Shown here: positions 7,896 through 21,214 of the stretch, piece after piece
How positions within the stretch are numbered: position 1 is the stretch's first letter
How the letters are laid out: each line of letters begins with the position of its first letter
From: Salipiger bermudensis
GTDB taxonomy: Bacteria; Pseudomonadota; Alphaproteobacteria; Rhodobacterales; Rhodobacteraceae
DNA: 64,000 nt
Reading direction: 5' to 3'
Assembly: GCF_019801965.1 (NCBI RefSeq)
Contig: NZ_JAHVIA010000011.1
Span: 1-64,000, forward strand
The notes under the pieces: generated by a model
What the model was told of the DNA's origin: nothing
The model's input: only the letters and a program-made list of their open reading frames with translations
Databases searched by the model: none
Translations under genes and position numbers: made by a program

Positions 7896-10800
7896 TCAGA
7901 CCGCGCTGTCAGGCTCCGCCGGGGGCGTCTCAGCGGTATCTTCCGACTTGCCGTGGATGCCGTGATAGTTCCCCGAAACCCGCTCGCGCGCCGCCTGTAG
8001 CGCCACGTAGAGGATCGGCGTCAGGACGACCCCGAAGCTGCTGGCAAAGGCCATGCCGCCAAACACCGCGATGCCGATGGCCTGCTGGCTGCCCGCACCC
8101 GCACCCGAGGCGACGACCAGCGGCACCACGCCCAGAAGGAAGGACAGCGCGGTCATCATCACGGCGCGGAAGCGCAGCCGTGCCGCCTCGGTGCCGGCGT
8201 CGAAGATCGACTTGCCCGAGGCGCGCAGATGCATCGCGTATTCGACGATCAGGATGGCGTTCTTGGCCCCGAGCCCGATCAGCATGATCATCCCGATCTG
8301 GGTGTAGAGATTGACGTCGCGCCCCGCGATCAGCACCGCCACATAGGCGCCCAGGAGCGCGAGGGGCACGGTGAGCAGGATCGCCAGCGGCATCGTCCAG
8401 CTCTCGTACTGGGCGACGAGGAAGAGATAGGCGAAGACCACTGCGAGTCCGAGAATGATCACCACGATGCCGCCCGCCTCCTGCTCCTGCAGGGCCGAGC
8501 CGGTCCATTCGAAGCTGTAGCCCGGCGGCAGGGTCTCGGCCGCCACCTGCTCGAGCACGGCGATCGCCTCCCCGGTCGAGGTGCCGGGGCTGGTGTTGGC
8601 GGTCAGCGCGGCGGAGCGGTAGAGATTGTAGCGCGGCAGGTTCATCGGGCCGACGGTATTTTCCACCGTGACCAGCGTGCGCAGCGGCACCATCTCCCCG
8701 CTCTGCGAGCGCACGTAGAGATTGGCGATATCGTCCGCGGTGTCGCGGAATTCGCCCTCGGCCTGGATCTTGACCTGGTAGACCCTTCCGAAGAGGTTGA
8801 AATCGTTGACGTAAACCGAGCCTAGATAGGCCTGTAGCGCGGTGAAGACATCGGAGACATTGACCCCCAGCGTCTTGGCGCGCTCGCGGTCGAGATCGAC
8901 GAAGAGCTGCGGCACGTTGGCCCGGAAGGTGGTGTAGCTGCGGGCGATCTCGTCGCGCTGGTTGGCGGCGAAGATCATCGACTTGACCACCGCGTCGAGA
9001 TCCTGCGGCGTGCCTGCGCCGGTCTGCTGGATCTGCATCGAGACGCCGTCACCGCTTCCGAGGCCCGGGATCGGCGGCGGGCTGAAGGTGATGATCGAGG
9101 CGCGCGGGATCTGCTGCAACTGGCGCTCTACCCGGGAGCGGATCGCCTCGGCGTGCAGCGCGGGATCGGTGCGCTCGTCCCACGGATCGAGCACCACGGC
9201 GAGGAAGGCGCCGTTCGCGGCGGCCCCGCCCGACAGGATCGAGAAGCCGTTCACGGTGACGTATTCCTTGACGCCCGGTGTGTTGGCGACAATCTCTCCG
9301 ACCTCGCGCGAGACCGCCTCGGTGCGGGCCAGCGTGGCCGCGTCGGGCAGCTGGATGTCGACCGCGAAGGTGCCCTGATCCTCGTTGGGGATGAAGCCGG
9401 TGGGCGCCACGCGCGACAGGCCGCCGAGTCCGATGAGCACCACGGCGACCAGCACGATGCCGATGATCGAGATCCGTGCAAGACGCGAAACGATGCCGAC
9501 ATAGCCGCTTCGGGTGGCCGAGATTGCGCCTTCGAAGACGCGCAGCAAGCCGCGCGGCTCGCCCTTGCGCGGCCGAAGGATCAGGCTGCAGAGCGCCGGC
9601 GACAGGGTGAGCGCGTTGAGCGAGGAGATCACCACGGCACCGGAGATGGTGATCGCGAACTCGCTGTAGAGCCGGCCGGTGATGCCGGGCATGAAGGTCA
9701 CGGGGACGAACACCGCCAGCAGCACCAGCGTGGTGGCGATCACCGGCGTCGTGACCTCGCGCATGGCCTGCCGGGTCGCCTCTTTCGGGGCCAGCCCCTC
9801 GGCGATCAGGCGCTCGGTGTTCTCGACCACGACGATGGCATCGTCGACCACGATGCCGATCGCCAGCACGAGGGCGAAGAGCGAGATCGTGTTGAGGCTC
9901 ATCCCCGCCGCCTGCATCACCGCGAAGGCGCCGATCAGCGACACCGGGATGGCGACCGCCGGCACCAGCGTCGCGCGCCAGCTGCCGAGGAAGATGTAGA
10001 CCACTGCCAGCACCAGAACGAGCGCCAGAAGGAGGGTCTGGATGACGTCGTTGATCGAGCTCTCGATGAAATCGGTGTTGTTGTAGGTCACCGCGTAGCT
10101 CATCCCCTCGGGAAGCGAGGCGGCGAGGCGTTCGATGGTCGAGATCACCCCTTCGGAGACCGCGACGGCGTTGGCGCCGGGGGCCTGGTAGACCCCGATC
10201 ACCGAGGAGGGCACGCCGTTGAACGAGCCGGAATAGGTGTAGAACTGTGAGCCCAGCTCGACCCGGGCGACATCGCCCACGGTCACCTGTGCGCCATCGG
10301 CGCCGGTGCGCAGCACGATTTCCTCGAACTCTTCCGGTTCGGCAAGGAGGCCCTGCGCGGTGACGGTGTAGGTCAGCTGCGGATCGTCGCCGCCCGGAGG
10401 TCCGCCCACTGTCCCCGCGGGGACAATGGCATTCTGATCCCGGATCGCCGCGATGAAATCGCTCGGCGTCATGCTAAGGGCAGCGAGGCGCTCGGGGTCC
10501 ATCCAGACCCGCATCGAGTATTTCAGGTTGGTCAGAACGTCGGCCCGGCCGACGCCGGGCACCCGGGCCAGCGGGTCGCGGAGATTGATGTTGGCGTAGT
10601 TCGACAGGAACAGCTCGTCATAGCTGCCGTCTTCGGAATAGAGCGTGACCATCAGCAGCATGTTGCTGCTCGACTTGCTGGTCGAGACGCCGTTGCGCAC
10701 CACGTCGGAGGGCAACTTGCTGTTGGCCTGCGAGACCCGGTTCTGCACGTTGACGGTCGCGATATCGGGATCGGTGCCGACCGCGAAGGTCACGGTCATG

Positions 10801-12242: not shown

Positions 12243-12437
12243 TTCGTCCCACCTCATTCAGTGATGGATTAAATGGTTGGGTGTGCAAAAATATTTCTAC
12301 TCGAAGTTTAGCAGTGCAACCGTTCAGATGCGACTCCAACCTGCGGAGATTGCGCGGGCTTATCGCCACAGCGCGGTCTGGAGCAGCGCCTCCACGCTCG
12401 TGCGCGGCGTGACGCAGGGCAGAGCGGGCCAGTCCGG

Positions 12438-12458
12438 CTCATGAAACCGCCTCATGAG
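12438..12458. promoter_or_regulatory. candidate LysR operator, perfect CTCATGA-N7-TCATGAG dyad
   Basis: A perfect 7-7-7 inverted repeat that also contains the LysR-type T-N11-A core (TGA-N7-TCA). It is 125 bases upstream of the exported cupin gene and about 195 bases upstream of the RND adaptor start. Related sites occur at 14068-14088, 17198-17218 and 21186-21214. Apart from this dyad I see no gene in the gap 12243-12582. Confidence 0.6.
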
Positions 12459-12582
12459 CGCTAATGCGGCCCCGGTATTATTCCTCCCGGATCCGACCCT
12501 AATTCTCATGCCAAGGGCGCGGGCCAACCCGCGCGCCCCAGGCCCTCCGGCCGCCTCTCGCAACCAACGGAGACGACCAGAC

Positions 12583-13044
12583 ATGACACGCACCTTCACC
12601 GCAGCCGCCCTCGTGCTCGCCACCGCAGGCTTCGCCTCGGCGCAGGAGATGACCCAGACCACCGGCCTCGAGCGCGGCGGCCAGATCGGCAGCGACGAGA
12701 CCTTCACCGGCACGGTCTTCGTGGCCCCGGTCTTCGGCCCCAACATGAACGATGTCAGCGCCGGCGAAGTGATCTTCATGCCCGGCGCGCGCTCGGCATG
12801 GCACACCCACCCGATCGGCCAGTATCTCGTCGTGACCGCCGGCACCGGCTGGTACCAGGAAGAGGGCCAGCCGAAGCAGATCATGCGCACCGGCGACGTG
12901 GTCTTCGCGCCGGCGGACGTGAACCACTGGCACGGCGCCACCGACACCACGTCGGTCACCCACTATGCCATCCAGGCCAATGAAGACGGCTCCGCCGTGA
13001 CCTGGGGCGAGCTGGTCTCCGACGAGGACTACCTCGGAGACTGA
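12583..13044 (+). CDS. exported cupin-domain protein (153 aa)
   Basis: A signal peptide (MTRTFTAAALVLATAGFASA, cleavage near AQE) precedes a single conserved beta-barrel cupin. The metal motifs are visible: PGARSAWHTHPIGQYLVV (G-x5-H-x-H) and GDVVFAPADVNHWHGA (G-x5-P-x-G/N-x2-H), so a metal-binding barrel is likely. The start at 12583 follows CGGAGA. A longer in-frame reading from 12454 lacks a sensible leader. It is a clear paralogue of the cytosolic cupin at 15670-16065 (shared ETF(T/S)GTV, AWHTHP, HWHGA, SPVTW-like ends). Cupins of this type often sit in quinone/aldehyde stress clusters. The reaction is unknown. Confidence 0.87.
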   Translation: MTRTFTAAALVLATAGFASAQEMTQTTGLERGGQIGSDETFTGTVFVAPVFGPNMNDVSAGEVIFMPGARSAWHTHPIGQYLVVTAGTGWYQEEGQPKQIMRTGDVVFAPADVNHWHGATDTTSVTHYAIQANEDGSAVTWGELVSDEDYLGD

Positions 13045-13167
13045 GCCGCGACCGGCGCCGTGCAGCCTCCGGAGCGGGGCTGCACAATCAGTGGACGCGA
13101 TGAATCTCGCGCATATATAATCAGGGGAGAGACTCCCATTTCCATCCGCAACGGCGATCCGTCCCCC

Positions 13168-14064
13168 ATGATCCGTGAGAATATCAACGACCTCATCGCG
13201 CTGGCCGCAGTCGCAGAGGAACGCAGCTTCACCCGCGCGGCGGCGCGGCTCAACGTGTCGCAATCGGCGCTGAGCCATGCCATCAAGGGGCTGGAGCAGC
13301 GGCTCGGGCTGCGCCTTCTGACGCGGACCACGCGTTCCGTCGCGCCGACGCTCGAGGGCGAGGACCTGCTGGCCACGCTCAACCCGTGCTTCGAGAAGAT
13401 CGAGGCGCGGCTGCAGGCGCTGAACGACTCGCGCGATCAGCCGACGGGCACCGTGCGGATCGTCGCCGTCGAATACGCCATCGAGTCGATCCTCTGGCCC
13501 AAGCTCTCGCCGGTGCTGAAGGAATACCCCTCGGTCAATGTCGAGTTCGTGATGGATTACGGCTACACCGACCTCGCCTCGTCGCAATGCGATGCCGGGG
13601 TGCGCTATGGCGAGCAGGTCAGCGAGGGCATGATCTCGATGCGGATCGGCCCGGACGAGCGGATGATCTGCGTCGGCGCGCCGGGCTATCTCGAGATCGC
13701 CGGCATTCCGCAGGAGCCGACGGAGCTCAGCGAGCACCGCTGCATCAACCTGCGGCTCTCGACCCATGGCGCGCTCTACGCTTGGGAATTCGAGGATGCC
13801 GAGGGCAACGAGATCCGCGTCAAGGTCTCGGGCCAGACCTGCTTCAACACCATCAACCCGGTGCTGCGCGCGGCGCTCGACGGGCACGGTCTGGCGCTGG
13901 TGCCGGAGCGGCTGGCCCTGCCGCATATCGAGAGCGGCGCGCTGCGCACCTGCCTCGACGCGTATTGCCCGTCCTTCCCCGGGTTTCACCTCTATTACCC
14001 GAGCCGCCAACGCCCCTCCTCGGCCTTCGAGGTGGTGCTGGCGGCGCTGCGGGAGCGGGGCTGA
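13168..14064 (+). CDS. LysR-family transcriptional regulator of the aldehyde/electrophile cluster (298 aa)
   Basis: The N-terminal winged helix-turn-helix (about 5-65) reads FTRAAARLNVSQSALSHAIK followed by GLEQRLGLRLLTRTTRSVAP, typical LysR. A two-lobe substrate-binding-like effector domain follows (about 90-295). MIRENINDLIALAAVAEERS at 13168 is chosen as the start, because LysR proteins begin close to the first helix and the upstream 36 codons are not family-like. It lies inside the cluster it presumably controls. The CTCATGA-type dyads at 12438, 14068, 17198 and 21186 contain the T-N11-A core expected for such a protein. The effector is unknown and may be a reactive carbonyl or oxidant. 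Confidence 0.9.
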   Translation: MIRENINDLIALAAVAEERSFTRAAARLNVSQSALSHAIKGLEQRLGLRLLTRTTRSVAPTLEGEDLLATLNPCFEKIEARLQALNDSRDQPTGTVRIVAVEYAIESILWPKLSPVLKEYPSVNVEFVMDYGYTDLASSQCDAGVRYGEQVSEGMISMRIGPDERMICVGAPGYLEIAGIPQEPTELSEHRCINLRLSTHGALYAWEFEDAEGNEIRVKVSGQTCFNTINPVLRAALDGHGLALVPERLALPHIESGALRTCLDAYCPSFPGFHLYYPSRQRPSSAFEVVLAALRERG

Positions 14065-14067
14065 GCA

Positions 14068-14088
14068 TTGATGAGGCGCGATCATGAG
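14068..14088. promoter_or_regulatory. candidate LysR operator (TTGATGA-N7-TCATGAG)
   Basis: Read on the minus strand this is CTCATGA-N7-TCATCAA. It has the same spacing and T-N11-A core as the perfect dyad at 12438-12458, with five of seven bases matching in the weaker arm. It begins 3 bases after the LysR stop codon and about 90 bases before the exported CMD-like gene. Confidence 0.55.
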
Positions 14089-14176
14089 TGCGATCATCAC
14101 ATCGGCCATTAACGCAGGGGCAATCCGCGCCACATCTGTCAGGCAGAGACCGCAACCCGACAGAGGAGCCTCCAAG

Positions 14177-14938
14177 ATGAAACGCTATATTGCCGCTTCG
14201 GCGCTCGCCCTTGCCGCCACGTCCGCGTCGGCGCAGGATGTCTCGACCACCCTACCGGACGCCGTGGGCCAGGTCGCGCCGGCGCTGGAAGCCTATTCGA
14301 CCGATGGCCTGATCGGCGAGGTCTGGTCCGGTGAACAGATGTCGATGCGCGACCGCGCGCTGGTAACCTTCGCAGCCCTGATGACCCGCCACGAGACCGA
14401 GAATCTCGGCTCCTATGTCGAGCTGGCGCTCGACGCTGGCGTGACCCCGGCGGAGCTGTCGGAAACCATCACCCACCTCGCCTTCTACACCGGTTGGGGC
14501 AACGCCACCGCCGCCGCCGAGGCGATGGCACCGGTCTACGAGGCCCGCGGCGTGACCGCCGAGGATCTTCCCGCTGTCGACCCCGAGCTGCTGGGCTACG
14601 ATGAAGAGGCCGAAGCAAGCCGCCAGGAAATGGTTTCGGGCATGTATGGCGATGTCAGCCAGGGCGTGGTCGACACCACCGAGCAGATGCTCTTCCTCGA
14701 CCTGTGGCGCCGCCCGGCGCTCGAGCCGCGCGACCGCAGCATGGTCACCGTGGCGGCGCTGATCGCCGCCGGCCAGCCGGAGCAGATGACCTTCCACCTC
14801 AACCGCGCGATGGACAACGGCCTGACCCAGGACGAGGCCGGCGCGATGCTCTCGCATCTCGCCTTCTACGCCGGCTGGCCCAAGGTCTTCTCGGCCCTGC
14901 CAGTCGCCAAGGAGGTGTTCGAGAACCGCGGCTCGTAA
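14177..14938 (+). CDS. exported tandem carboxymuconolactone-decarboxylase-like protein (253 aa)
   Basis: A signal peptide (MKRYIAASALALAATSASAQ) is followed by two CMD/AhpD-fold repeats. The first is about 50-130 (RDRALVTFAALMTRHETENL ... ETITHLAFYTGW). The second is about 170-250 (RDRSMVTVAALIAAGQPEQM ... MLSHLAFYAGWP). The protein contains no cysteine at all, so it cannot be an AhpD-type peroxidase relay. It resembles the PcaC-like lactone decarboxylase branch, with the conserved His in both repeats. GAGGAG precedes the ATG. It is the first gene of a likely operon with the reductase and cytosolic cupin. The periplasmic location for this fold is unusual. Confidence 0.85.
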   Translation: MKRYIAASALALAATSASAQDVSTTLPDAVGQVAPALEAYSTDGLIGEVWSGEQMSMRDRALVTFAALMTRHETENLGSYVELALDAGVTPAELSETITHLAFYTGWGNATAAAEAMAPVYEARGVTAEDLPAVDPELLGYDEEAEASRQEMVSGMYGDVSQGVVDTTEQMLFLDLWRRPALEPRDRSMVTVAALIAAGQPEQMTFHLNRAMDNGLTQDEAGAMLSHLAFYAGWPKVFSALPVAKEVFENRGS

Positions 14939-14998
14939 ATCGCGAACAAAGACAGGAGGGGGGCGGAGACGCCCCCCTCGCAGTTCAAGGAGCAGATT

Positions 14999-15634
14999 AT
15001 GAAGATTGGCATTCTGGGATCCGGATTGATGGGCGGCAAGCTCGGTCAGCACTGGGCCGCCGCCGGGCATGACGTTCTGTTTTCCTACTCCCGCAGCGAC
15101 AGCAAGCTGCAGCGCCTCGCCCGCGAAACTGGCGGGCAATACGGTTCGGTTGCCGAAGCGGTGGGCCACGGCGACGTGCTGCTGCTGGCGGTGCACTGGA
15201 GCCGCATCGACGATGTTCTGGACCAGGCCGGTCCGCTCGATGGCAAGGTGGTGCTGAACTGCTGCGTGCCGCTCGACGCGTTCGACCGCGACCTGGTGGT
15301 CGGCACGACCTCCTCCGGCGCCGAGGAACTGGCCCGCAAGCGGCCCAAGACGCGATGGGTCTCGTGCTTCAACACGACACCCTCCGAGAGCTTCGCGCCG
15401 GTCTATGCCCGCAAGGGGCAGGCGCCCGCGCCGCAGGTGCTCACCTATGCCGACGATGACGGCGCCAAGCAGATTGCCGGCGGCCTCATTCGCGACATCG
15501 GGTTCGAGCCGCTCGATTGCGGCGGGCTGCGCAATGGCCGCTATGTCGAGCCTTTCGCTATGGCCACGGTCGAGCTGGCCTATGTCCAGCCCGGTGGCCC
15601 CGCACTCACCTACCGTTTTGATAAGCTGCGCTGA
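14999..15634 (+). CDS. NADP-binding Rossmann reductase, F420:NADP-oxidoreductase-like (211 aa)
   Basis: The N-terminus [20 protein letters not shown] is a dinucleotide-binding GxGxxG fold. It is followed by a YSRSD segment that suits NADP phosphate binding. The overall size and order match NADPH-dependent F420 reductase-like proteins (pfam03807 type), which in proteobacteria lacking F420 act as oxidoreductases on other substrates. AAGGAG lies 7 bases before the ATG. No signal peptide, so cytosolic. It lies between the exported CMD-like protein and the cytosolic cupin. Substrate unknown. Confidence 0.8.
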
Positions 15635-15669
15635 GACCAGCGCAGCAATTGGAAGAAGGAGATCTCCCC

Positions 15670-16065
15670 ATGAAAATCATTCGCTGTGGTAGCATGCCCT
15701 CGCAAAAAGGTCCGGAAGAAACCTTTTCCGGCACCGTCCGCCTCGAGATGATGTTCCAGGCCGATGAGCCGGGCCGCACCTCGGGCGCGCACGTGACCTT
15801 CGAGCCCGGCGCGCGCACCGCGTGGCACACCCACCCCGCGGGCCAGACCATCATCATCACCTACGGCCGCGGCCTGGTGCAGCGCGACGGCGGCCCGATC
15901 GAGGAAGTGACGGCGGGCGACGTCGTGTTCTTTCCGGCCGGTGAAAAGCACTGGCACGGCGCCTCGCCGAAGAACGCCATGTCGCACATCGCCATCCAGG
16001 AGAGCATCGACGGCTCGCCGGTGACCTGGATGGAGAAGGTGTCCGACGAGCAATACGGCGCCTGA
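15670..16065 (+). CDS. cytosolic cupin-domain protein (131 aa)
   Basis: A single-domain cupin without a signal peptide. It has [18 protein letters not shown] (G-x5-H-x-H) and [16 protein letters not shown] as metal motifs. It is a paralogue of the exported cupin 3 kb upstream, with the same end pattern ([18 protein letters not shown]). AAGGAG lies at good distance before 15670, and an upstream in-frame ATG at 15649 lacks one. It is the last gene of the CMD/reductase/cupin operon and is followed by two hairpins. Cupins of this group frequently accompany CMD proteins and aldo/keto reductases, but the reaction has not been deduced here. Confidence 0.87.
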
Positions 16066-16073
16066 CACGAAAA

Positions 16074-16097
16074 CGCCGGCGGGGAGACCCGCCGGCG
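16074..16097. terminator. bidirectional hairpin between convergent cupin and aldo/keto reductase
   Basis: CGCCGGCGGG-GAGA-CCCGCCGGCG is a perfect 10-bp stem with a GAGA loop. On the minus strand it is followed by TTTTCG, so it can end the aldo/keto reductase message. On the plus strand TTTT follows after a few bases. Confidence 0.7.
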
Positions 16098-16154
16098 ACG
16101 CCGTTTTCCGATCGCGTCTCGCGCGCAGCGCGGACCCAACCGCCCGACATGCAA

Positions 16155-16184
16155 ACGGGGCCGCAAATCGCGGCCCCGTTTTTC
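16155..16184 (+). terminator. Rho-independent terminator downstream of cupin operon
   Basis: ACGGGGCCGC-AAATC-GCGGCCCCGT is a perfect 10-bp stem followed directly by TTTTT. It is a strong intrinsic terminator on the plus strand, placed about 90 bases after the cupin stop. Confidence 0.85.
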
Positions 16185-16200
16185 GTTCTGGAGCGTCAGC

Positions 16201-17061
16201 TCAGTGCTTGCCGCTGTAGACCGGGAAGGCGCTCGCGTCGCCGTAATCCTTGGCGGTCAGCGATTTCAGCGTGTCCATATCCGCGTCGGTGATCTCGAAA
16301 TCGACGTCGGCATTGGTCTTCATGTGGTCCGGGTTCGCAGTCTTCGGCAGCGCCAGGAGATCCAGCTGCAGCACGTAGCGGATGCAGAGCTGCGGGATGC
16401 TCACGCCGTATTTCTGCGCGATGGCGCCAACCTCTTCGTTGTCGAGGATCTTGCCGTGGGCGATCGGCGAGTAGGCCTCGACCAGCATGCCATTCGACTT
16501 CGAATAGTCGATCAGCTCGAACGGCGTGTTGCCGACATGGGCCAGGACCTGGTTGATCATCGGCTTGATGGTGGCGTTCTGCAGCAGGTTGTCGAGGTCC
16601 TGTTTCTGGAAGTTCGACACGCCGATGGCGCGGATCTTGCCGGCCTCGACGGCCTCTTCCAGCGCTTTCCACGCCGCGAGGTTGCCCTCGAAGAAGCGGT
16701 CTTCGCCGGCCCAGTCGGCCCAAGGCTGCGGGCTGTGGATGATCATCAGGTCGATATAGTCGAGCCCGAGGGTCCTGAGCGAGTCCTCGATGCCGGCCTT
16801 GGCGCCGTCGTAATCCTTGATCTCGGCAGCGAGCTTGGTCTGCACGAAGAGCTCTTCGCGTGCCACGCCACAGGCGCGGATGCCCTCGCCCACGCCGCGC
16901 TCGTTGCCATAGGCCTGCGCGGTGTCGATGTGGCGGTAGCCGAGCTTGACGGCGGCCACGACCGCGTCTGCGACCTTGTCGTCGTCGATCATCCAGGTGC
17001 CGAGCGCCAGCTTGGGAATGGCGACGCCGTTCGGCAGGGTATCGGTTTCTTGCAGGATCAT
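16201..17061 (-). CDS. aldo/keto reductase, 2,5-diketo-gluconate-reductase type (286 aa)
   Basis: A NADPH-dependent carbonyl reductase of the AKR superfamily ((beta/alpha)8 barrel). The catalytic tetrad is complete: D46 and Y51 in YRHIDTAQAYGNE, K76 in VQTKLA and H109 in MIIHSPQPW. The cofactor end motif PKTANPDHMKTNADV is also present. Length is normal for the DkgA/DkgB group, which reduces methylglyoxal and other small aldehydes. It is a single gene, convergent with the cupin operon. Its promoter region carries a CTCATGA-type site at 17198-17218, which ties it to the neighbouring LysR regulon. Confidence 0.93.
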   Translation of the reverse strand: MILQETDTLPNGVAIPKLALGTWMIDDDKVADAVVAAVKLGYRHIDTAQAYGNERGVGEGIRACGVAREELFVQTKLAAEIKDYDGAKAGIEDSLRTLGLDYIDLMIIHSPQPWADWAGEDRFFEGNLAAWKALEEAVEAGKIRAIGVSNFQKQDLDNLLQNATIKPMINQVLAHVGNTPFELIDYSKSNGMLVEAYSPIAHGKILDNEEVGAIAQKYGVSIPQLCIRYVLQLDLLALPKTANPDHMKTNADVDFEITDADMDTLKSLTAKDYGDASAFPVYSGKH

Positions 17062-17197
17062 GGTGATCTCCTTTCCGGTTCGGCCCGTCGGGGCCCGTGT
17101 CTCAGGTCGGAGCGGGGCGCGCTTTCGGCTGCCCGTCCGTCTGGCAACAATCTAGGCCGATCGGGGCGCGACGATAACCGACGCCGACTGACACTCA

Positions 17198-17218
17198 CTC
17201 ATGAGAAGCCTGCATCAA
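17198..17218. promoter_or_regulatory. candidate LysR operator (CTCATGA-N7-GCATCAA)
   Basis: The left arm is identical to the dyad at 12438-12458, the right arm matches at four positions, and the T-N11-A core spacing is the same. It is 137 bases upstream of the aldo/keto reductase start, inside the 242-base gap between that gene and the aldehyde oxidase operon end. Confidence 0.5.
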
Positions 17219-17251
17219 TCGCGGTATCCTGCGGTGTCGCGGCCAAGCGAA

Positions 17252-17281
17252 ACGGGGCGACCCCTTGCAAGGTCGCCCCGT
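17252..17281 (-). terminator. terminator downstream of paoC-type gene
   Basis: ACGGGGCGACC and GGTCGCCCCGT form a perfect 11-bp stem with an 8-base loop. On the minus strand the stem is followed by TTTCGCTT. It begins about 22 bases after the stop of the molybdenum subunit gene and probably ends that operon. Confidence 0.75.
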
Positions 17282-17303
17282 GCTGCCGTCACGGCCTGTC
17301 CGC

Positions 17304-19484
17304 TCAGACGGCGGGCAGGCGATCGATGAACTTGTCCATCGTCAGCGGGTAGTCGCGCACGCGGACGCCGGTGGCGTTGTAGACGCCGTTGGCGATGGCC
17401 GCGGCCACGCCGCAGAGTCCCAGCTCGCCGACGCCCTTGGCCTTGAGCGGCGTCGCCACCGCGTCGAGCGTGTCGAGGAAGATGACCTCCTGCTCGGGGA
17501 TGTCGGCATGCACCGCGACCTCGTAATTCGCCATGTCATGATTGGCGAAGAAGCCGCGCCCGGTGTCGAGCGCCATGTCCTCCGAGAGCGCCGCGCCGAC
17601 GCCCATCACCATGCCGCCGATGACCTGGCTGCGGGCGGTGATCGGGTTGATGATACGACCGGCATCGCAGACCGCGAGCATCCGGCGCACCCGCGTCTCG
17701 CCGGTATAGGCATGCACGCCCACCTCGACGAAATGCGCCCCGAAGGTGCCCATGGCGTAGCCCTTCTGGAAATCACCCCACTGGATCGCGTCCTCGGCGG
17801 AGACCTCTTCATTGATCTCCGAGAGCGCCATGTCGGTGTCGCCGCCGGTGACGCGGCCTCCGTTGAATTCCGCCTCATCGAGGCCGAGATTGCCGGCGAT
17901 CTTCTCGCGCAGCGCCATGCAGGCGGCATAGACGCCCGAGGTCGAGCTCGGCGCGCCGAACTGGCCGCCGGATCCGGAGGAGACCGGGTAGGCGCTGTTG
18001 GCCATGCGCATCTCGACATCGGCCACATCCATGCCCATGGTCTCGGCGGCGGTCTGCGCCAGGATGGTGTAGGAGCCGGTGCCGATATCGGTCATGTCGG
18101 TCTCGATGATCAGCTTGCCGCCATCGAGGATCGCCCGCGCGCCCGAGGGCATCACCAGCGCGCCGCGATAGGCCCCGGCCACGCCGTGCCCGATCAGCCA
18201 GTCGCCGTCGCGCTGACCACCGGGGCTGGTGTTGCGCTGCGACCAGTTGAAGGCCTCGGCGCCGCGCTCGAGGCACTCGACGAAATGACGGTCGCTGAAC
18301 GGGATGTCCGGGTCGGACGGGTTCACCTGCGTGTCATTGACGATGCGGAACTGCACCGGGTCCATGCCCAGCTTCTCGGCCATTTCGTCCATCGCGATCT
18401 CGAGCGCCATCAGGCCGGAAGCCTCGCCCGGGGCGCGCATGTCGGCGGTCTCGGGCAGCGGCATGTCGACCACGTGGTTCTTCACCCGGCGGGTCTCGCC
18501 GGCGTAGAAGACCGGGGTCTGCGCGGTGGCGTTCTCGCCGCGCCCGCCGGGCAGGCAATAGGCCGCGGCCTCGTGCCAGATGCCGGTGAGCTTGCCATCG
18601 GTCCCCGCCGCGAGGCGGATGCGCTGAACGGTGGCCGAGCGGTGGGTGGTGTTGTTCATCACCATCGGGCGTGGCAGCGCCAGCTTCACCGGCACACCGG
18701 CCGCGCGCGAGCCGAGGGCGGCCAGCACCGCGTCGGCGCGCAGCCAAAGCTTGGACCCGAAGCCGCCACCCACGTAGGGGCTCTCGACCCGGATGCGCTC
18801 CTGGTCGATGCCGAAGGTAGTGGCGATTGACTGGTGGTTCCAGTTGATCATCTGGTTCGAGGTCCAGACCGTCATGTCCTCGCCACCCGACCAGTCGACG
18901 GTGGAGCTGTGCGGCTCCATCATCGTGTGGCTCTCGCCGGGCGTGTGATACATCTGGTCGACGACCTGTGCGGCATCGCGGAAGGCGGCGTCGACATCGC
19001 CAACCAGCGTGTCGGGCTCGCCGGTGCCCTGCACCCGCTCGAAGGCGGCGTCGAGATCGAGATCCGCGGGGGCGCCCTCCTCGTACTCGACCTCGATCAG
19101 GGCGCTGGCGGCGCGGGCCTGCTCGAACGTGTCGGCCACCACCACGGCGACGGCCTGGTGATAGTGCTGCACCTCGTCGCCGCCGAACAGGCGCGCGACG
19201 TTGTTCATGCCCTTCTCGAGCGGGTCGATCTCGAGCGTGGTCACCACGGCGCGCACGCCGGGGGCGTTGCGCGCGGCCTCGGCATCCATCCGGGTGATGC
19301 GGCCATGTCCGATGCCGGCACCCAGCGGGTAGCCATAGAGCGCATCGGGGGCCGCGTCATTGCGCTCGTAGGCGTAGGGCGCGGTGCCGGTGACCTTGAG
19401 CGGGCCGTCGATGCGCTGCATCGGCTTGCCCACGACCTTGGCGTTGTCGAAGAGATTGCTTTCGACCGGTTTGGTGAATTCCAT
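17304..19484 (-). CDS. paoC: PaoC-like molybdenum-cofactor subunit of periplasmic aldehyde oxidase (726 aa)
   Basis: The large catalytic subunit of a xanthine-oxidase-family aldehyde oxidoreductase. Cofactor and active-site signatures are visible: YVGGGFGSK, the AxGEASG-like loop MRAPGEASG and the catalytic glutamate in KGVGELGLCG (E687). It lacks its own signal peptide, as expected for E. coli PaoC, which is exported as a complex by the Tat signal on PaoA. Length matches PaoC (~730 aa). It is the last gene of a paoABC operon, with a 1-base gap to paoB. It oxidises aldehydes to acids, probably a broad aromatic/aliphatic range. Confidence 0.92.
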   Translation of the reverse strand: MEFTKPVESNLFDNAKVVGKPMQRIDGPLKVTGTAPYAYERNDAAPDALYGYPLGAGIGHGRITRMDAEAARNAPGVRAVVTTLEIDPLEKGMNNVARLFGGDEVQHYHQAVAVVVADTFEQARAASALIEVEYEEGAPADLDLDAAFERVQGTGEPDTLVGDVDAAFRDAAQVVDQMYHTPGESHTMMEPHSSTVDWSGGEDMTVWTSNQMINWNHQSIATTFGIDQERIRVESPYVGGGFGSKLWLRADAVLAALGSRAAGVPVKLALPRPMVMNNTTHRSATVQRIRLAAGTDGKLTGIWHEAAAYCLPGGRGENATAQTPVFYAGETRRVKNHVVDMPLPETADMRAPGEASGLMALEIAMDEMAEKLGMDPVQFRIVNDTQVNPSDPDIPFSDRHFVECLERGAEAFNWSQRNTSPGGQRDGDWLIGHGVAGAYRGALVMPSGARAILDGGKLIIETDMTDIGTGSYTILAQTAAETMGMDVADVEMRMANSAYPVSSGSGGQFGAPSSTSGVYAACMALREKIAGNLGLDEAEFNGGRVTGGDTDMALSEINEEVSAEDAIQWGDFQKGYAMGTFGAHFVEVGVHAYTGETRVRRMLAVCDAGRIINPITARSQVIGGMVMGVGAALSEDMALDTGRGFFANHDMANYEVAVHADIPEQEVIFLDTLDAVATPLKAKGVGELGLCGVAAAIANGVYNATGVRVRDYPLTMDKFIDRLPAV

Positions 19485-19485
19485 C

Positions 19486-20436
19486 TCAGGACTCCTTCAG
19501 CATGGCCGCGAGCGTGCGCTCGGCGAGGGTGATCTTGAAGGCGTTCTCCTCGGTGGGCCGGGCGCCGTCGAGCAGCACCGACATCACCGCGGAGGCACCG
19601 TTGGGCAGCTCGGCATCGGCGGCGTCGGAGCGCCACGGTTTAGGGGCCACGCCGCCAAGCGCCACCCGGCCGGAGCCGTCGGCCTGACGGATCAGCGCCA
19701 CCGAGACCAGCGCGAAGGCATAGGAGGCGCGGTCGCGGACCTTGTGATACTCCTGCACGCCGCCCACCGGCGCGGGCAGGCGCACATGGGTGATGAGCTC
19801 GCCCGGCATCAGCGCGGTCTCCTGCTCCGGCGTGTCGCCGGGCAGCAGGTGAAACTCCTCGAGCGGAATCTCGCGGGTCATGCCGGTGGGGGTCACCGTC
19901 TCGACCACCGCGTCGAGCGCGCGCATCGCCACCGCCATGTCGGACGGATGGGTCGCGATGCAGGCATCCGAGGTGCCGATCACGCCCAGCTGGCGCGAAA
20001 AGGCGCCTTCGCTGAGCGCGGCGCAGCCGGAGCCGGGCACGCGCTTGTTGCAGGGCTGGTTGGTGTCATAGAAATACGGACACCGCGTGCGCTGCAGCAG
20101 GTTGCCGCCGGTGGTCGCCTTGTTGCGCAGCTGGCCGGTGGCCCCTGCGGCGATGGCACGGGTCAGCAGCGGGTAATCGCGGCGGATGCGGGCGTCGGCG
20201 GAGAGCGCGGTGTTGGTCACCAGCGTGCCGATGCGCAGCCCGCCCTCCTCGGTCTCGGTGATCTCGTCGAGGCCAAGGCCGTTGACGTCGATGACGTGCA
20301 GCGGGGTCTCGATCTCAAGCTTCATCAGGTCGAGAAGGTTGGTGCCGCCAGCAAGGAACTTGGCGCCCTCGACCTCTGCGGCGCGGGCCGCGGCAGCCGC
20401 GGGATCGGCGGGTTTCTCGTAGGAAAAGGCTCTCAT
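19486..20436 (-). CDS. paoB: PaoB-like FAD and [4Fe-4S] subunit of periplasmic aldehyde oxidase (316 aa)
   Basis: The FAD-binding subunit of the xanthine-oxidase family ([32 protein letters not shown]). The segment with C119, C129, C138 ([11 protein letters not shown]) and probably C159 matches the extra [4Fe-4S] insertion known from E. coli PaoB and 4-hydroxybenzoyl-CoA reductase beta. This separates it from ordinary xanthine dehydrogenase FAD subunits. The start at 20436 overlaps the paoA stop (ATGA) and gives the family N-terminus [11 protein letters not shown]. It transfers electrons from the molybdenum site through FAD to an acceptor. Confidence 0.92.
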
Positions 20437-21074
20437 ACGCTTTCCTCCGCAACTTGAGTGATGGCGGCGAGGATGTTGGCATAGGCGCCGCAGCGGCAGA
20501 TATTGCCCGACATGCGCTCGCGGATCTCGGCATCGGTGATGGCGATCTCGGCGGTCAGGTCGCCGGTGACGTGGCTCGGGATGCCGGCACGGATCTCCTC
20601 GATGACCTTGCGGGCCGACTGGATCTGGCCCGGTGTGCAATAGCCGCACTGAAAACCGTCATGCTCGACGAAGGCCGCCTGCATCGGATCGAGATTCTCG
20701 GGCTGGCCGATGCCCTCGATGGTCTCGACCTCGTCGCCGTCATGCATCACCGCGAGGCTCAGGCACGAGTTGATGCGCTCGCCGTTCACCGTGCAGGTGC
20801 AGGCGCCGCACTGGCCGTGGTCGCAGCCCTTCTTGGTGCCGGTGAGCTTGAGGTGCTCGCGCAGCGCATCCAGCAGCGTGGTGCGGTTGTCGACGGTCAG
20901 CTCGCGCGGCTCGCCATTCACCGTGAGCGTGACGGTGGAGGTTTCGGGACCGGCGGGCGCGGCGCTGCTCTGGGCCGCGGCACCGCCACGGTTGACGGCG
21001 GAGAAGGCGGCTGCGGCGGCTGTGCCGGCCAGAAGGGTGCGGCGGCGCAGGCTGAAATCGATGGGTGGGCTCAT
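20433..21074 (-). CDS. paoA: PaoA-like [2Fe-2S] subunit with Tat signal (213 aa)
   Basis: The iron-sulfur subunit of the periplasmic aldehyde oxidase. The N-terminus has a twin-arginine leader ([20 protein letters not shown]), the export signal for the whole folded heterotrimer. The plant-type [2Fe-2S] site uses C84, C89, C92 and C104. The second site uses C143, C146, C193 and C195 ([15 protein letters not shown]). It is first in the paoABC operon. The promoter region holds two CTCATGA sites (21186-21214), linking it to the LysR regulon of this cluster. Confidence 0.93.
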
Positions 21075-21185
21075 AAGAGTTCCTTCCTCTCGCGTGGGGT
21101 CGGCCGCGGCGGGAGGCGGCCGCGCCGGATGACGATGATGGAGGGAATGCTAGGGCGGGAAAGGGCCGAGCAAAGCGATTTGAGA

Positions 21186-21214
21186 CTCATGATGACAATC
21201 GAACAGGCTCATGA
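21186..21214. promoter_or_regulatory. two CTCATGA half-sites, candidate LysR-controlled divergent promoter
   Basis: CTCATGA occurs at 21186-21192 and again at 21208-21214, 22 bases apart (about two helical turns). The second copy sits in GGCTCATGAAACC, a 13-mer identical to 12436-12448. The sites lie in the 408-base gap (21075-21482) between the divergent paoABC operon and the FNT channel gene. I see no gene in that gap. Confidence 0.55.

Follow-up and report, generated by a model that had tools for sequence, protein, structure and literature searches.

LysR-type regulators act through a T-N11-A box, for which an extended form, CTATA-n9-TATAG, has been given (PMC5002191). In E. coli, YafC is a predicted LysR factor (PMC9068703) that is listed among the factors of unknown function (PMC9308461). 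The LysR activator MexT of Pseudomonas aeruginosa, encoded near the RND pump operon mexEF-oprN, has been tied to hypochlorite tolerance (PMC7950407), and NemR and RclR have been described as regulators of electrophile or oxidant regulons (PMC7464077, PMC7950407). Moreover, cupins and short-chain dehydrogenases/reductases (SDRs) recur in chlorite-dismutase neighbourhoods linked to reactive chlorine (PMC9751292), which is a possible lead for the locus discussed here. This locus lies in a stretch of 64,000 nucleotides from Salipiger bermudensis (C11:1-64000, hereafter the window, from a genome of 4.83 Mb in 32 contigs), in which a LysR gene (13168-14064) stands among genes for cupins, reductases and an aldehyde oxidoreductase, several of them preceded by a palindromic dyad built on TCATGA. 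The comparisons described below make it quite probable that these dyads are the recognition sites of this LysR and its orthologues, with a target regulon in the window and on an unlinked contig, C10. The system is a LysR-type regulon of a known kind that is not described in the literature found; no published account of this regulator appeared in the open-licence library searched, or in the passages of PMC5343134.

A sequence-only reading of the window had pointed to a perfect CTCATGA-N7-TCATGAG palindrome before an exported cupin gene and to two weaker copies with the same spacing, and all three are present. The perfect copy (dyad A, 12438-12458, + strand) has its centre 135 bp upstream of the cupin start. 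The second (dyad B, 14068-14088, + strand) reads TTGATGA-N7-TCATGAG, with two mismatches, and is found between the LysR stop codon, immediately 5' of it, and the gene for an exported carboxymuconolactone decarboxylase-family protein (CMD). The third (dyad C, 17198-17218, - strand) precedes an aldo/keto reductase (AKR) gene and reads TTGATGCAGGCTTCTCATGAG on its own strand, with three mismatches. The spacer is identical (N7) in the three dyads, the T-N11-A symmetry is present, and the LysR gene does stand in the middle, between the exported cupin and the CMD gene. Two further CTCATGA copies lie 22 bp apart before paoA, at 21186 and 21208, and the letters of GGCTCATGAAACC at 12436 are indeed those at 21206; the paoA TCATGA pair is spaced N16, not N7, and is therefore not the same dyad as A to C. 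Counts within the window are near chance, with 10 CTCATGA where 8.84 are expected (10 or more in 38 of 100 shuffles) and five dyads with up to three mismatches against 2.59 expected (15 of 100 shuffles), and window statistics alone are unable to decide whether the dyad is real.

At the genome level, exact TCATGA-N7-TCATGA pairs occur at four places and are confined to two clusters, with one in the window (12439, before the exported cupin) and three in the unlinked C10 cluster (76609, 82581 and 86762). Only 0.88 such pairs would be expected if TCATGA were as frequent as it is in the window with 12-22 kb left out, and the 16 other spacings give six pairs in total, three for N0-N6 and three for N8-N16, one of the latter being the paoA pair. 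When up to two mismatches are allowed, the 14-base dyad is found at ten places in the genome (two of them perfect), including two in the window cluster and four in one C10 cluster, against none for a reversed-pattern control. The motif thus stands out at the scale of the genome. A matrix scan of the genome, as the sequence-only reading had proposed, was carried out with a 51-column profile built from 39 promoters of relatives, the window genome being kept out of the training. Its nine best places (E <=0.04) all fall in three loci, namely the window, C10 and a C9 locus near a LysR paralogue; they precede CMD (34.7 bits), RibD (23.2), AKR (23.1), iorA (22.4), a C10 MFS gene (20.9), a cyclophilin-like gene (19.7), the second cupin (17.3) and the window cupin (16.9), with the C9 site at 16.2 bits. 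Four of the remaining six listed matches are the same palindromes read in reverse, and the other two are C6:383043 (12.5 bits) and C10:86828 (9.7 bits). The dyad before the DUF2255 gene on C10 is exact, yet its profile score is just 7.7 bits.

The C10 cluster contains a second exported cupin, a glucose/sorbosone-dehydrogenase-like gene, a RibD-like reductase, two MFS genes, iorAB and a cyclophilin-like gene, together with genes for DUF2255, a metallo-beta-lactamase-fold protein, an SDR and an alpha/beta hydrolase. The nearest match to the window LysR on C10 lies about 55 kb off, yet the sites have been kept. The two exported cupin genes (12583-13044 in the window; 16179-16637 of L005 on C10) lie on unlinked contigs and are identical in 446 of 459 bases; 90 bp upstream of them are almost identical, and beyond this it is mainly the dyad and its surroundings that are alike. 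Genes clustered together in seven of the ten other LysR-bearing congeners are split in the window genome, over 12-17 kb of the window and C10:75-90 kb (L005, L021). L005 also encodes, at 9144-9626, a Tat-like exported cyclophilin-like (Cyclophil_like2) protein, relatives of which recur beside this LysR with a box of their own in 34 of 53 rows.

Within the genus, 11 of 20 genomes carry the LysR at >=84% identity, and ten of these 11 are all the genomes with two dyads at <=1 mismatch; among the nine genomes without such a LysR, a single dyad was found, in G012, and it lies within an unrelated gene. The genes of both halves form one cluster in G005, G007, G008, G011, G014, G016 and G019, typically in the order exported cupin, dehydrogenase, LysR, CMD, reductase, cupin, RibD, MFS and iorAB (the G007 contig ends after MFS), while C10-type genes were not recognised beside the LysR cluster in G006, G013 and G018. 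With up to two mismatches, a dyad precedes CMD at -99 to -108 in 12 of 13 rows, iorA in 8/8 and RibD in 6/7, and one is found before the exported cupin in all 11 rows, at -133 to -144 in ten and at -95 in G058, a genome of another genus. AKR orthologues have one 148-249 bp upstream in 12 of 12 cases, the AKR of G058 being without a dyad. None was found at this threshold upstream of the cytoplasmic cupin (0/13 rows), the reductase (0/12) or MFS_b (0/6). When 12 loci with single dyads in genomes of the family or class were opened, all of these dyads except that of G058 lay outside such clusters. A profile scan of 11 congeners (the nine without the orthologue, G018 and G019; E <=0.01, 150 candidates scored per genome) gave five sites in G019, four in G018, one each in G003, G004, G009 and G010, and none in G001, G002, G012, G015 and G017. 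The single site of G004 is an AKR box and that of G010 precedes a frame that starts AKR-like and then changes, whereas the targets of those in G003 and G009 were not recognised. L272 (G010) and L275 (G009) hold strong single boxes without a close LysR, and a zinc alcohol dehydrogenase-like frame lies near both.

The same picture emerges from more distant loci, for which the best 80 of 215 LysR relatives were kept. Of 65 loci with a LysR at >=70% identity, 59 have a dyad at <=1 mismatch, 43 of these within 80 bp past the LysR end, as do 11 of the 15 loci with a LysR at 53-57%. The spacer control on all 80 named loci gave 136 dyads for N7 against 1-9 for each other spacer from N3 to N12, and that on 26 loci representing LysR clusters gave 46 against 0-4 for each other spacer from N0 to N16. 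Leaving out the eight loci whose contigs match those of training genomes in length results in a set of 72, to which two genomes contribute two loci each. In this set, position weight matrix matches at >=8 bits on both strands number 314, against three in a Markov null, and only two of 129 dyads match a training dyad letter for letter; a profile match at >=12 bits is present in 72/72. Counting a gene as having a site when one lies 20-400 bp upstream, sites precede CMD in 52 of 59 cases, the exported cupin in 36 of 43, AKR in 24 of 26, SDR in 4/5, PaoA in 3/4, the cyclophilin-like gene (<45% identity) in 34 of 53 and RibD in 7/17. Genes that are usually inside an operon have a site upstream at times (reductase 11/55, cytoplasmic cupin 9/61), and iorA (2/11), MFS_b (1/14) and the dehydrogenase-like gene (2/16) rarely do. 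Taken with the promoter dyads and the profile scan, these 72 loci support one LysR-type box common to the exported cupin, the CMD-reductase-cupin operon and AKR.

The promoters themselves have a conserved architecture. The sites in the promoter alignment were chosen at <=2 mismatches, so that conservation inside the dyad is inflated and the flanks alone are unselected. In these flanks, 28 of 30 promoters have a G two bases past the 21-base dyad, and 28 of 30 have a T at a distance of 31 bases from its centre, within CATTAT/GATTATC. Promoters outside the training genomes keep the T of this second element in 98% (CMD) and 100% (AKR) of cases, the element reading CATTAA for CMD (n=49) and GATTATC for AKR (n=23), with CCACAT- or CTAGAT-like letters about 18 bp past it. 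In the window, the element and the putative -10 are found on the + strand at 12476-12504 for the exported cupin (TATTAT 12476-12481; CTAATT 12499-12504) and at 14107-14135 for CMD (CATTAA 14107-14112; CCACAT 14130-14135), and on the - strand at 17150-17179 for AKR (GGTTATC 17173-17179 on its own strand; CTAGAT 17150-17155). The usual recognition site of LysR-type activators lies around -65, in what is known as the -65/-35 scheme. If CTAGAT is taken as the -10, the centre of the AKR dyad would lie about 66 bp before the predicted start. Dyads in general would stand at about -65 and the second element near -35, the arrangement of promoters that LysR-type regulators activate; the spacing between dyad and second element is conserved, and the -65/-35 placement is counted from predicted start sites. 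The T-N11-A symmetry and the unselected second element fit a LysR-type promoter.

With regard to the regulator, 106 LysRs were compared with the sites around them, after duplicates and stop-containing proteins had been dropped and long matches kept. A site lies within 2.5 kb of 66/66 LysRs at >=70% identity to that of the window, 14/17 at 53-70% and 9/18 at 47-53%; the five below 47%, whose loci had been retrieved on account of a different LysR, are hardly informative. In site carriers, the recognition helix mostly ends in SALSH. Judging by the counts per identity band and by the helix, the box goes with this LysR subfamily, in which the LysR of the window is the best candidate regulator of the boxes. 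There is no clear enrichment that would point to thiol sensing by this protein: among orthologues at >=70%, near-invariance is seen in four of seven cysteine columns and in 138 of all 298 columns; Cys192 is kept in 66/66, 17/17 and 16/20 proteins of three identity bands, which proves nothing about sensing.

The boxes could also be read jointly or mainly by paralogous LysRs from within the subfamily (C9:90984, 50% identity; C1:82833, 48%), in which case they would belong to a LysR network and not to one gene's regulon. This seems unlikely. The C9 paralogue shares the SQSALSH helix of the window LysR and has a 16.2-bit site about 2.6 kb away, flanked by an alpha/beta hydrolase gene and an MFS gene, so that shared control is possible, and G004 retains its AKR box with only a 54% LysR. 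On the other hand, paired dyads in the genus track the >=84% orthologue, and G004 and G017, which have only the 50% ones, have none at <=1 mismatch. Four paralogues with SALSQ, that of C1 included, have no site within 2.5 kb, and nor do the SALSH-type LysRs of L074, L125, L127, L128 and L130, although L074 and L130 have one slightly farther off. The C9 site itself (C9:88354; L074 7355-7373) is a third box of the window genome, and the same layout with a box is found in G007 (L130).

It is very improbable that the palindrome is bound by a protein of a different regulator family (TetR, MarR or HxlR type) whose gene lies elsewhere, the LysR being a mere neighbour. TCATGA is self-complementary, so the site can be read as a repeat, and other regulators do occur near some clusters, such as a TetR-like gene in L064 (these families were not scanned systematically). 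However, the LysR recurs with the box from Salipiger to Halomonadaceae, even if the wider loci were chosen by LysR, and the site has T-N11-A symmetry, with the second element centred on a position about 31 bp away. Finally, chance, or a single promoter copied with the duplicated cupin, can practically be dismissed: the window counts are near expectation and the exported cupins are recent duplicates, but CMD, AKR, iorA and RibD promoters with unrelated spacers and flanks carry the dyad in many genomes, the two cupin promoters have kept it while their outer flanks and part of the spacer differ, and the spacer controls refute this explanation.

Certain observations weigh against recognition of the boxes by this LysR alone, or against parts of the LysR-type scheme. 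LysRs of about 50% identity with the same helix are also found near such boxes, and G003, G004, G009 and G010 carry one site each in the absence of a close orthologue. In G018, the eleventh genome with the LysR, the gene has one in-frame TAG and the sites are kept; the TAG of this orthologue (G018:C1:744945-745835) may reflect decay or a sequencing error. The LysR gene of the window has no site in its own upstream region (-22.8 bits), as opposed to 8 of 71 LysR rows that have one, and it is co-directional with its neighbours instead of divergent, so that the classical autoregulation is missing, divergence being common among such regulators and not universal. The second element is weaker and less regular in exported-cupin promoters outside the training genomes (T 0.56, n=34). 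Furthermore, of the 1447 first-look candidates in the genome profile scan, 150 were scored, and its list may therefore lack weaker places.

With the LysR of the window retained as the probable reader of the boxes, the membership proposed by the sequence-only reading holds for the exported cupin, the CMD operon and AKR, is not supported for the FNT channel, is weak for paoABC and is possible but unsupported for the RND pump, while the additional C10 locus and the C9 box go beyond it. Before paoA (21186-21214, - strand), an intact TCATGA (21209-21214) faces a degenerate N7 partner, CGATTG on its own strand (21196-21201), which lies where some relatives have the dyad, and a second TCATGA is present at 21187-21192, a possible decayed or weak site. 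The best paoA score in the window, -7.3 bits, is just below the 95th percentile of the background (-6.8) and no better than that of FNT, which with -7.0 bits reaches the 94th percentile. Scores of about 8 bits or more precede paoA in 7 of 22 rows, all from other genomes, namely G018 (19.4), G003 (16.1, despite having no close LysR), G016 (12.0), G008 (8.0) and the loci L202, L208 and L261 (10.5, 8.1 and 8.2 bits); the second G007 copy reaches 4.1 bits and G019 -14.7, and scores are also negative in G005, the first G007 copy, G011, G015, G058 and seven more distant rows. The paoABC genes may thus be regulon members in some relatives, and are marginal or doubtful ones in the window genome as judged from these scores. 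In G018, paoABC, SDR and DUF2255 genes are found together (L145, 1-3422), with the 19.4-bit site before paoA, and an 18.4-bit profile match lies in front of the DUF2255 gene (C1:3730540). As for the RND pump, dyad A reads 11.3 bits towards it (99th percentile) because the palindrome reads both ways; on this strand the profile matches only the dyad part (positions 3-26), and no RND gene was recognised in the LysR clusters of congeners.

In the window cluster, the exported cupin (12583-13044, + strand) is a single-domain protein with a signal-peptide-like N-terminus by eye, and belongs to the (R)-mandelonitrile lyase family NF049940 (152.5 bits, cut-off 140). The LysR (13168-14064, + strand), the proposed regulator of the boxes, matches the Pfam domains HTH_1 (78.6 bits) and LysR_substrate (99 bits) above their cut-offs. 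It is followed on the + strand by the exported CMD (14177-14938), with two matched stretches, by an F420_oxidored-fold NADP-dependent reductase (14999-15634) and by a cytoplasmic cupin (15670-16065; NF049940, 189.3 bits), the last two presumably in the CMD operon and without a site of their own in the genus. On the - strand lie AKR (16201-17061; Aldo_ket_red, with DkgA as its best NCBIfam match, below the cut-off) and the periplasmic aldehyde oxidoreductase paoABC (17304-21074; PaoA and PaoC above the NCBIfam cut-off), the doubtful member. The N-termini of the exported cupin, CMD, PaoA, IorB, and the cyclophilin-like and dehydrogenase-like proteins appear exported- or Tat-like by eye.

From these data we infer a mechanism in which a LysR dimer would bind ATTSATGM-N7-TCATGAGTG centred near -65. 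In the presence of an inducer, which is probably a reactive aldehyde, a quinone or an oxidant, another dimer would contact CATTAT/GATTATC near -35 and activate transcription from the predicted start. In the window, the regulon would comprise the exported cupin, AKR and the operon of CMD, reductase and cytoplasmic cupin; on C10, it would include an efflux-type MFS gene, DUF2255, the cyclophilin-like gene, iorAB, the RibD-like reductase with its MFS gene, and the second exported cupin with the glucose/sorbosone-dehydrogenase-like gene. Since many of the products are exported-looking, transporters or oxidoreductases, this looks like an envelope detoxification regulon, and the families suggest oxidation, reduction and export of reactive small molecules. 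A broader proposal, to which we would give about an even chance, concerns an uncharacterised LysR subfamily that ranges from Rhodobacterales to Halomonadaceae and has TCATGA-N7-TCATGA as a box of its own. This subfamily would control a dedicated envelope regulon directed at one class of reactive carbonyls or oxidants that lacks a known sensor in these bacteria, made up of mandelonitrile-lyase-like cupins and CMD, both exported, together with molybdenum aldehyde oxidases, reductases and efflux; in the window genome, the regulon would have been split over two unlinked loci with its boxes retained. Single-domain cupins, exported CMD, cyclophilin-like and DUF2255 proteins, which are families usually annotated by fold alone, recur together around this LysR in many Alphaproteobacteria and would thereby gain a precise regulon, with regulator, operator and targets. 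Searching with the box is also a way to reach members at unlinked loci, and the identity of the inducer would reveal what these enzymes act on.

Among the known systems, the locus resembles other LysR regulators with a T-N11-A box, with which it shares an upstream dyad, a second, weaker element on the promoter side and an HTH_1 and LysR_substrate protein encoded beside its targets; it differs in its TCATGA half-site, in place of CTATA, in a regulator that is non-divergent and without a site of its own, and in having several unlinked target loci. In E. coli, yafC and dkgB likewise place a LysR gene beside an aldo/keto reductase gene, and among the NCBIfam models it is YafC that the window LysR matches best. 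An assignment to YafC (NF040888) was nevertheless rejected, with 134.7 bits against a cut-off of 470, 27% identity and a helix with SAVSR instead of SALSH, and no dyad at <=2 mismatches was found in 6 kb around dkgB-yafC. NemR and RclR systems resemble this one in that reductases or AhpD/CMD-like proteins respond to reactive electrophiles or chlorine, whereas NemR, unlike the window regulator, is a member of the TetR family, and RclR also belongs to a family other than LysR. MexT, finally, shares with the window the presence of an RND pump near a LysR gene; here, the pump is unsupported as a target and was not recognised in the clusters of congeners, in which the LysR is accompanied by cupins, CMD and reductases.

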